In this document: one piece after another, positions 33,498 to 41,035 of the stretch | Layout of the letters: every line of letters starts with the position of its first letter | Position numbering within the stretch: the first letter of the stretch is position 1 | Source: Patescibacteria group bacterium | GTDB lineage: Bacteria > Patescibacteriota > WWE3 > JAUXAW01 > JAYEID01 | NCBI GenBank assembly: GCA_034659915.1 | Contig: JAYEID010000014.1 | Coordinates: 1-58,390 of the forward strand | DNA length: 58,390 nt | Direction of reading: 5' to 3' | Program-made: the position numbers and the translations under genes | Notes under the pieces: model-generated | The model's input: only the letters and a program-made list of their open reading frames with translations | The model's database searches: none | What the model was told of the DNA's origin: nothing

Positions 33498-33734
33498 TTA
33501 GATTAGATGTTTGTTTCTAAAAGCTACCCCTGAACCTGTTTTGAGATAGGCTTCAAATGATTCTGCTTTTTCTTTCGATTCAAAAGCTGTATAGGAAACT
33601 AACCGGCAAGGTAAAAAATTCTTAGTAGAGGGGTTCTTGCCAGATTGATGCTCTTCCAATCTTCTATCAAGATCATATGTTGAACCGGTATAGTAATCTC
33701 CGTTGGAAAGGTTGAGGATATAAACGTAGTGCAC
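33498..33734 (-). CDS. GIY-YIG nuclease domain protein, intact
   Basis: 78 aa starting at GTG 33734. The GIY-type strand is HYVYILNLSNGDYYTGST, the helix DLDRRLEEHQSGKN supplies the conserved Arg and His, and the end is KAESFEAYLKTGSGVAF with the catalytic-type Glu. Single-domain proteins of this kind are related to UvrC and to homing nucleases. Their cellular role is not established. Downstream lie island promoter B; upstream are palindromes and a 15-bp copy of the tRNA-Asn 3' end. A TACAAT box lies 6 nt before the GTG. Confidence 0.88.
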   Translation of the reverse strand: MHYVYILNLSNGDYYTGSTYDLDRRLEEHQSGKNPSTKNFLPCRLVSYTAFESKEKAESFEAYLKTGSGVAFRNKHLI

Positions 33735-33763
33735 AAACCTATTGTATCAGATGCCCTACTTCG

Positions 33764-33842
33764 TCCTCCTTCGCTAAAGCTTCGGACGACTACGTACGGC
33801 ACTCATAATTCCTAAACTCGCAGACTCGTTAAGGAATTATGG
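33764..33842. repeat. Palindromic repeats upstream of the intact GIY-YIG gene
   Basis: The REP-like GTCCTCCTTCGCTAAAGC/GCTTCGGACGAC block (about 33766-33790) is followed by CATAATTCC/GGAATTATG arms (about 33804-33840). Related REP cores (TCCGCC..CGCTAAGGCTTCGGCGGA) occur near tRNA-Ser at 39633-39659 and near tRNA-Asn. Confidence 0.65.
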
Positions 33843-34324
33843 TGGCTCCGGGGGTGGTATACTTCGGTCAGAAGCTACGTACTACCTGAATCACCCCCTA
33901 CGACCGGAAGAGAAGTCCTTCTCCAAGGCTACGGAAACTAATCGTTTGTATGCAAAAGCTTTCCCTGACCCAGTCTTTAAATATTTTTCGAAGTTTCTTG
34001 CTTCTTTTTCCGTTTGAAAAGCACCATACCAAACTAAATCCCATGGCCTATGTGGTCTAGTAGATTCTACCTTCCCATCATTATGCAACTTGATCCTGCT
34101 TTTCAAATTATCAGTCGAACCGTAATAAAAAATAGGGGACTTTTAACTTAGAAGTATATAGCAATAAAACATTGGAAGGATGCAAAACCGTACTACATCA
34201 GAACTTCGTAATGGCATACCAGTTCGTAACGCCCTGTCGCTCAAAGCTTTGGAAGCGTAGTGGACCTTCTCAAAAAGATGGCATGCCAGTCCGTAGCCTT
34301 GGCGAAGGATGGCTCCGGGGGTGG
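33843..34324. mobile_element. Candidate small element inserted at the tRNA-Asn 3' end
   Basis: The 15-bp sequence TGGCTCCGGGGGTGG occurs at 33843-33857 and at 34310-34324, where it is the CCA, discriminator, acceptor and first T-stem bases of tRNA-Asn. Between the copies lie a GIY-YIG gene (broken) and palindromes. Direct repeats made of a tRNA 3' end are the usual footprint of site-specific insertion. The unit of about 470 bp carries no recombinase, so it would depend on another enzyme, or it is a duplication by recombination. Inference from repeat structure only. Confidence 0.5.
33891..34172 (-). pseudogene. GIY-YIG nuclease domain protein interrupted by in-frame TAA
   Basis: From ATG 34172 the frame reads MFYCYILLS, then TAA (34145-34143), then KSPIFYYGSTDNLKSRIKLHNDGK and FEKYLKTGSGKAF in the same frame. 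The two parts make one full GIY-YIG domain. The lesion is in the linker between the GIY-like strand and YYG, the same place as the frameshift in the copy at 10027-10283. Alternatively translation restarts at an internal TTG, but that would lose the first catalytic strand. Confidence 0.8.
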
Positions 34325-34618
34325 GATTCGAACCCACAACCTAGGGCTTACACTTAACCTCCTGCTTTCACAAGAGAGTGGACTATCTCATTATCATATT
34401 TCGATATGTAATCGAAACGTAGATACTGGGCACTTGAAGGTGTAATCACCTAGTCTCTGAACCTTCTCTGTTTAAGAAAACAGAGCTTGGCTGCGGATTA
34501 CCATAATCCCTATAAGGATCTTAGGCTTCCCGACAATTCACCCAGTTGGCATCTTGAAGTTTCCTTCAAGAGCTGCGCTTCTGCACAGGCCCGCGCGCTA
34601 CCATTGCGCCACCCCGGA
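34310..34618 (-). tRNA. tRNA-Asn (GUU) interrupted by a group I intron
   Basis: Exon 1 (34618-34585) begins TCCGGGGTGGCGC and ends in the anticodon loop at CTGT. Exon 2 (34350-34310) begins TAAGCCC and ends CCCCGGAG plus encoded CCA. Joined, the loop is CTGTTAA (anticodon GUU), stem GGGC/GCCC, T-arm GTGGG TTCGAAT CCCAC and acceptor TCCGGGG/CCCCGGA with G73, a good tRNA-Asn of 75 nt. The intron sits between positions 35 and 36 of the anticodon. tRNA-Asn must be spliced for the cell to read AAC/AAU unless another copy exists elsewhere. Confidence 0.92.
34351..34584 (-). ncRNA. Group I intron (234 nt) in tRNA-Asn
   Basis: P1 is CUGU|GC paired with GCGCAG, placing a U-G wobble at the 5' splice site. 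P2 is CTTGAAG-GAAA-CTTCAAG. Core elements are visible in order: P-like AATTGTCGGGAAGCC, Q AATCCGCAGCCAAG, R GTTCAGAGACTAGG, S GAGATAGTCC (P7 GACTA/TAGTC) and a terminal G. No ORF fits inside. It is ORF-less like the cyanobacterial tRNA introns, but the host tRNA and position differ. Confidence 0.92.
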
Positions 34619-39401: not shown

Positions 39402-39493
39402 TGGCGGAAGGGGTGGGATTCGAACCCACGGTCCCGATAAATCGAGACACTGGTTTTCAAGACCAGCGCTTTCAACCACTCAGCCACCCTTCC
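39402..39493 (-). tRNA. tRNA-Ser (UGA)
   Basis: Acceptor GGAAGGG/CCCTTCC, anticodon arm CTGGT CTTGAAA ACCAG, long variable arm, T-arm GTGGG TTCGAAT CCCAC, G73 and encoded CCA. It reads UCA. Part of its 5' half is duplicated 120-240 bp away (39614-39738). Confidence 0.95.
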
Positions 39494-39613
39494 ACTAACC
39501 ACTAAATCAAATTCCTGGTTTTTCCCGTAAACGCAGCCAAAAAGGCTACTACGGGATTAATTCGGCCACCGCATCAGGCTCGCCCAAGCTCACCTTCTGC
39601 GGGCCTCATTGAA

Positions 39614-39738
39614 CAAGACCAGCGCTTTCAACTCCGCCTACGCTAAGGCTTCGGCGGACTAATTCGACTTTCGATTCTTCCACCAGATTGGAATAATCGA
39701 GTCTCATTGAGCACTCAGCCACCCTTCCACTAACCACT
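39614..39738. repeat. Split duplicate of the tRNA-Ser(UGA) 5' half with a palindromic insert
   Basis: CAAGACCAGCGCTTTCAAC (39614-39632) copies the anticodon-to-D-arm part of the tRNA (from 39459). After 79 nt, 39712-39738 copies 39477-39503, the tRNA 5' end plus 10 nt of its upstream flank. The insert starts with a REP-like palindrome TCCGCC...GGCGGA (39633-39659) and is followed by TAATTCG...CTCATTGAG. A related TAATTCGG...CTCATTGAA unit lies at about 39554-39612. The fragment cannot form a tRNA. Confidence 0.8.
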
Positions 39739-40618: not shown

Positions 40619-41035
40619 GGGGATGACTTGGTTTCGATTGAAAACAAGTTCTAGATCTTCAAGCCGAGCAAACCTCGTTAATCTTTAAGTCTCCCAATCT
40701 ATTGGGAGCAGGCAAAATAAATGCCAACTTATTCTCTAAAGTAGAGGAATCAATTAACCGATTTGCGTCGGCACTTGTTTCCCCTACTCCTCAGTACGCC
40801 TTAGCGTAACCTGAGGTGTCCGCTTGGCTTTCTCCCGATGAAGCCTTGCCGGGCATCATCCAGTCGGGATGCGGTATAAAAATCTGGTTTTGTTTTGTAC
40901 CAAAGAACTTATAAACCACACTCAGGCATGTGTTTGTTAGCTTTTACCACCTGAGTATTATTAAAGCTAACTATGCTTGTAAACTGATCTAGAGTAGTTT
41001 TCGAGACGGGGGTTCGACTCCCCCCATCTCCACCA
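40619..41035 (+). ncRNA. ssrA: Transfer-messenger RNA (tmRNA)
   Basis: 417 nt. The 5' end GGGGATGACTTGGTTTCGA pairs as GGGGATG with CATCTCC at the 3' end. The T-arm is GGGGG TTCGACT CCCCC and the end ACCA is encoded. The tag frame starts at GCA 40708 and reads AGKINANLFSK, EESINRFASALVS and PTPQYALA up to TAA (40807-40809), about 33 residues, unusually long, ending in the protease-recognised YALA. Pseudoknot-forming stems flank the tag. smpB lies convergently 240 nt away. It rescues stalled ribosomes. Confidence 0.96.

Follow-up and report, generated by a model that had tools for sequence, protein, structure and literature searches.

A predicted group I intron in the anticodon of tRNA-Asn(GUU) of a Patescibacteria bacterium, probably a homing intron that has lost its endonuclease gene

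On the minus strand of the window (the whole 58,390-nucleotide stretch of Patescibacteria DNA that we analysed, which is contig C14 of an 806-kb genome in 26 contigs that is 95% complete), the gene for tRNA-Asn(GUU) runs from 34618 to 34310 and is interrupted by a group I intron between U35 and U36. Judging from its sequence, this intron very probably splices itself out of the tRNA-Asn transcript, reached the gene by DNA homing, lost an HNH gene that it once carried, and has been kept because it splices. The 5′ exon (34585–34618, minus strand) comprises nucleotides 1 to 34 of the tRNA, i.e., canonical positions 1 to 35, and ends in ..CCTGT, whereas the 3′ exon (34310–34350, minus strand) reads TAAGCCCT..GAGCCA, with the CCA encoded; in BLAST with the spliced tRNA, the two matched at 100% over 34 nt and 41 nt, respectively, and both are part of the tRNA that ARAGORN finds in the spliced sequence. 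The intron itself (34351–34584, minus strand; 234 nt) starts with GCAGAAG, ends with GTTAAGTG (..AAGTG), and was delimited by a match to Rfam RF00028 of 89 bits together with alignment and covariation. Upon removal of 34351–34584 in silico, a 75-nt tRNA was obtained that ARAGORN named tRNA-Asn(gtt), with 27-43 drawn unpaired in its cloverleaf. On the unspliced window, ARAGORN missed the gene at default settings and, with introns allowed, detected it but named it tRNA-Thr. The insertion lies within the anticodon loop, as in known bacterial tRNA introns. The original prediction of a 234-nt group I intron after position 35 in the anticodon of tRNA-Asn(GUU) thus held to the exact coordinates.

The fold of the intron is that of a group I ribozyme. 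An Infernal search with RF00028, suggested along with the original prediction as a check, returned 89.0 bits (gathering score 50; E = 1.9e-21) over the full length (1–253) for a match spanning 34596–34359, and the folding z-score of the pre-tRNA was −4.5, with 0 of 100 shuffled sequences equally stable. In P1 (34573–34588; all elements on the minus strand), the exon end CUGU and the first intron bases GC pair with GCGCAG (34578–34573) across an AGAA loop, with a U-G pair at the splice site and the internal guide sequence GCAG at 34576–34573. We evaluated covariation over an alignment of 42 tRNA-Asn introns that lack long ORFs. The CUGU/GCAG splice-site pairs did not vary in any of the 42, while compensatory changes occurred at 8/8 pairs of P2 (34552–34571; GAAA loop), and double changes at 4/6 pairs of P3 (5′ strand ACUGGG, 34541–34546; 3′ strand CCCAGU, 34425–34430) and at 7/7 pairs of P9 (34359–34376; GAAA loop). 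The P4-P5-P6 domain (34461–34536), which includes the P and Q elements, and the R element GUUCAGAGACUA with the 5′ strand of P7 (34451–34462, the strand itself at 34451–34455) were placed by the Rfam alignment and by covariation, and P8 (34393–34424) by covariation. The S element AAUGAGAUAGUCC with the 3′ strand of P7 (34380–34392, the strand itself at 34381–34385) is the pseudoknot partner of R, and P7 was paired in 100% of cells. Over the 42 introns, 88.1% of the cells of the group I structure were paired and 46/61 pairs showed double changes, giving a covariation score of 0.493, compared with 0.148 after shuffling and at most 0.097 with the pairing partners slid. The RF00028 match and the 42 homologues accordingly identify a group I intron by its conserved P3–P8 core, its P, Q, R, and S elements, and its P7 pseudoknot; the U-G splice pair of P1, the GAAA loop of P2, and the P/Q/R/S elements that had been read from the window are all present. 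The last intron nucleotide is a G, which is kept in the homologues, although the survey pattern itself required it. By eye, we found no convincing P10 between the guide region and the 3′ exon of the window intron.

From this architecture, a conventional splicing route can be proposed. The transcript would fold round the P3-P7 pseudoknot core, with the exon end CUGU paired to the guide GCAG in P1, and a bound guanosine would attack after U35. The freed 5′ exon would then attack after the terminal G, joining the exons as CUGUUAA and restoring the GUU anticodon. Removal by a protein tRNA-splicing endonuclease of the archaeal type would act at the same place, as an anticodon loop location is common to both kinds of intron. 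We give that reading almost no credence, given that a full group I core covaries and such an enzyme is unneeded; archaeal-type introns, moreover, usually lie at 37/38 and require a bulge-helix-bulge.

The intron is not peculiar to the window. In a survey of 380 genomes of the candidate phyla radiation, group I introns were detected in 152 (E ≤ 1e-8). Hosts were assigned for the best 90 intron places only, by splicing in silico and with P1 pairing required, as the readings CT/..TGTAA [Thr(TGT)] and CTGT/..TAA (Asn), with the slash marking the splice site, otherwise tie. Among these 90 places, the most frequent tRNA host was tRNA-Asn(GUU), split at 35/36, with the majority of the classified tRNA introns; tRNA-Met(CAU), tRNA-Phe(GAA), and one tRNA-Asp(GUC) came next, and the remaining introns lay in rRNA-like sequence or had no placement. 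The introns in tRNA-Phe(GAA), in tRNA-Asp(GUC), and at two different positions of tRNA-Met(CAU) were observed in related genomes, at loci L043, L051, L055, L060, L066, L067, L072, L079, L081, L100, L118, L120, and L121. Among the GTDB representatives, at least 115 stretches carried the split tRNA-Asn signature. Of the matches listed, 80 loci were tested for complete acceptor and anticodon stems; 67 passed, their introns measuring 186 to 632 nt. Most of the split loci came from the candidate phyla radiation, but RF00028 also confirmed records from cyanobacteria, Stahlbacteria, Deltaproteobacteria, and Bacteroidetes. On a Pacearchaeota contig (L150), tRNA-Asn(GUU) is split by a 423-nt insert that scored below the Rfam gathering score, and we do not claim this insert as group I; the contig appears archaeal (TYW3, KRR1-type KH protein), and the start of the insert resembles an HNH ORF.

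Such recurrence bears on the concern that the split gene arose as a chimera during assembly, which a draft genome fragmented into 26 contigs might invite. This has a negligible chance of being correct: The same site and architecture recur in the 67 of 80 independent contigs among the matches listed, one of them the complete genome CP006914, and the junction bases are exact. The same tRNA-Asn site is also occupied by a minority clade whose core differs (GGGATAAC..GCCGTAGAGACTAGATAC), which suggests that introns arrived there more than once. The expectation that an Asn host would be unusual therefore stands only in part. We found no paper describing one, yet tRNA-Asn is the commonest tRNA host seen among the best-scoring introns of the phylum, and the split signature occurs in 41/380 genomes; the tRNA-Asn group I intron is unreported in the literature searched but not rare.

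The split gene appears to be the only tRNA-Asn gene of its genome. None of the 48 other RF00005 matches in the 95%-complete assembly was recognized as a second tRNA-Asn, two tRNA-like matches on contig C1 having unclear anticodons, and BLAST with the spliced tRNA revealed no further full copy across the genome. The intron-free second copy that might have spoken against the original prediction was thus not encountered. On contig C1 (17708–18163), three low-scoring tRNA-like matches lie in series, which ARAGORN resolves into two genes with anticodons that are not cleanly readable. Because the window copy is the sole tRNA-Asn found, its splicing would have to be efficient, although a second gene could be absent from the assembly, the genome being 95% complete. 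That possibility underlies a contrary account in which the intron is dead and unspliced, and the unassembled 5% of the genome supplies an intact tRNA-Asn that reads Asn codons. The incompleteness of the 26-contig genome and two relatives that carry both split and intact copies lend it some weight, but the core elements and splice-site pairs are all intact, and split and intact genes largely exclude each other across the phylum. The split signature (RTGTAA..T-arm) was found in 41/380 genomes and the matching intact signature in 130/380, both patterns being strict and missing some genomes of each kind. The intact signature was present in 2/41 genomes with a split gene, i.e., absent from 39 of them, versus 128/339 of the others (Fisher p = 6e-6), and only G088 and G217 showed both. 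We therefore regard a dead intron as very unlikely. In the draft genome G217, the split and intact genes (contigs C11 and C15) share the same 3′ half, perhaps as filled and empty alleles of two strains.

The long relatives of the window intron reveal what it may have lost. All 20 of the introns of 519–632 nt encode one type of HNH protein of ~110 aa, whose ORF occupies the P1 loop, and in 17/20 of them the guide GCAG is read within this ORF, in a T-Q-L-P motif. The single such protein that we scanned reached 20 bits for PF01844, slightly below the 21.4-bit cut-off. By contrast, six-frame reading of the window intron disclosed no endonuclease ORF, and its P1 loop has only 4 nt (AGAA). Because of this missing ORF and short loop, the window intron is best read, on sequence grounds, as a degenerate homing intron without its endonuclease. 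A search of the source genome, run without a positive control, found no homologue of the HNH type. In a quick intron tree with weak support, ORF-bearing and ORF-less copies were intermingled, with ~16 changes in ORF presence; in the lineage of the window, the change would have been a loss.

Filled and empty sites occur side by side. In genus g7, which belongs to the class of the window but is not its genus, G155 has an empty tRNA-Asn while G092, G147, and G325 have filled ones, and the exon sequence at the junction is identical between the two alleles. In G001, from the order of the window, an intronless tRNA-Asn adjoins rpoD, which is also a neighbor in the window. The spread of the intron would be explained by the presence, often, of a DNA-cutting gene inside the intron: The HNH enzyme of the same-site introns should cut empty tRNA-Asn anticodon loops and so allow the intron to arrive by DNA homing. 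The window copy would then have lost the HNH gene, leaving the AGAA loop of P1, and have been retained because splicing continues. What the sequences show is the anatomy of the intron, its conservation and covariation, the single tRNA-Asn of the assembly, the HNH ORFs in relatives, and an empty site in a congener of intron carriers; splicing in vivo, cleavage by HNH, and ORF loss in the lineage of the window we infer.

A different candidate for the homing enzyme lies next to the tRNA. A decayed GIY-YIG gene with one in-frame stop (33960–34172, minus strand; PF01541, E = 4.8e-17) is located outside the intron, 138 bp 3′ of tRNA-Asn, and is followed by a copy of the 3′-terminal 18 nt of the tRNA (33843–33860, minus strand; 94% identity, with an exact 15-nt core) and by a second small GIY-YIG gene (33537–33731, minus strand; PF01541, E = 1.6e-13). 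Since GIY-YIG enzymes are known as homing endonucleases and the gene is so near and on the same strand, it might be, or have been, the enzyme of the intron. We find this quite unlikely, given that the introns of relatives contain HNH instead, that the tRNA 3′-end copy flanks the GIY-YIG gene of the window outside the tRNA gene, and that GIY-YIG genes accompany tRNAs widely. In the class of the window, 27/51 small GIY-YIG genes lie no more than 400 bp from a tRNA, many of these tRNAs being intronless and all 27/27 on the same strand as the gene, versus 0/10 for UvrC controls; the intronless tRNA-Asn of G001 is one of the tRNAs with such a neighbor. In the source genome, 12 PF01541 matches exceeded the cut-off, and 7 of these share their strand with a tRNA that lies within ~600 bp.

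Several of these loci contain duplicated tRNA halves. On the far side of the GIY-YIG ORF lies an old 5′ half of the same tRNA, cut short within the anticodon loop (Gln 5-35, Cys 1-36 and 15-36, Phe 1-38, Asn 17-35), and at the tRNA-Gln locus the stop codon of the ORF abuts nucleotide 1 of the intact tRNA. The order in the window, intact tRNA-Asn, broken GIY-YIG gene, and last-18-nt copy, represents the 3′ type of this pattern. To judge from these arrangements, small GIY-YIG genes with half-tRNAs apparently constitute a separate, intronless homing element of anticodon loops that rebuilds the tRNA it splits, and the GIY-YIG genes of the window are probably neither the homing enzyme of the intron nor leftovers of it. 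The suggestion that they were relics of intron homing therefore finds no support. Further GIY-YIG/tRNA loci, always with both genes on one strand, were observed in the source genome (contig C22, 30761–31230; an intact GIY-YIG gene lies beside tRNA-Gln(CTG) on this contig) and at L260, L298, L300, L304, L331, and L334. Elsewhere in the window (39402–39738), tRNA-Ser(TGA) is preceded by two fragments that duplicate its 5′ half, pieces 1-17 and 18-36, the first ~235 bp away (39712–39738 region), with no GIY-YIG gene left between; these are a possible decayed copy of a GIY-YIG-type insertion. The window also contains a tmRNA (40619–41035) with the tag peptide ANLFSKVEESINRFASALVSPTPQYALA.

Viral contigs carry the split gene as well. 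In IMG/VR, 14 contigs matched the split tRNA-Asn signature and 5 held a full split tRNA-Asn (L337, L340, L341, L343, and L347), of which L337, L340, and L347 passed RF00028. In L337, L340, L341, and L343, the split gene stands among other tRNA genes, and genes for phage tail, baseplate, or endolysin proteins are present on L337 and L343. Such uncultivated virus contigs are possible vectors of the intron. Against named phages, BLAST with the window intron gave no good match, only partial ones over 13–31% of the query, one adjoining a cyanophage psbA gene that is split and one labelled tRNA. Taken together, two unrelated homing systems may both target the tRNA anticodon loops of the candidate phyla radiation: HNH group I introns, which are spliced out, and intronless GIY-YIG elements, which break a tRNA gene in this loop and restore it with a replacement half while the old half is left behind. 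The tRNA-Asn locus of the window would bear marks of each system, and phages whose tRNA arrays carry tRNA-Asn introns may move them. We rate this wider picture as tentative, at slightly under an even chance.

These observations add an essential, usually single-copy tRNA to the common homes of group I introns, and they imply that such genomes can seem to lack tRNA-Asn when searched with ordinary tRNA finders. Given sites both filled and empty, and introns that have or lack the HNH gene, the gain, decay, and loss cycle of a homing intron becomes directly testable in one small gene, and the uncultivated phage contigs bear on how introns travel. In the open-access literature, as far as its texts were available, we found no description of a bacterial tRNA-Asn group I intron, and a paper elsewhere may exist; the window intron is a known kind of intron at a host site undescribed in the literature searched. 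The tRNA hosts named or cited in the available parts of a review (PMC3984707) and of the tRNAscan-SE 2.0 paper (PMC8450103) are others than Asn. That 2014 review places all phage introns observed to date within protein-coding genes. Some tRNAs in completed metagenome genomes had group I introns (PMC8172020), with isotype, position, and mechanism not given in the available portion of that text.

Compared with known systems, the window intron resembles the bacterial group I introns of tRNA-Leu(UAA), Arg(CCU), Ile(CAU), and fMet, which, per PMC8450103 and PMC3984707 with its references, are likewise small, sporadic, inserted into an anticodon loop whose tRNA is essential, and in some cases equipped with endonucleases; it differs in its host, tRNA-Asn(GUU), split at U35/U36. 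The tRNA-fMet intron of cyanobacteria likewise encodes an endonuclease (Bonocora and Shub 2001, cited in PMC3984707) aimed at the anticodon region of a tRNA, whereas the enzymes of the tRNA-Asn introns are of a ~110-aa HNH type. The frequent rRNA group I introns of the candidate phyla radiation (PMC11270868) share the phylum and also contain homing endonucleases, but their hosts are rRNAs, LAGLIDADG enzymes are prominent, and tRNA is absent from the main text. For the GIY-YIG neighbors (33537–34172), the closest parallel is phage SegB, a homing endonuclease whose gene lies beside tRNAs and which cuts inside tRNA genes; SegB, however, is phage-borne and amplifies tRNA loci, and the available part of its description (PMC13096335) does not describe the regeneration of a half-tRNA.
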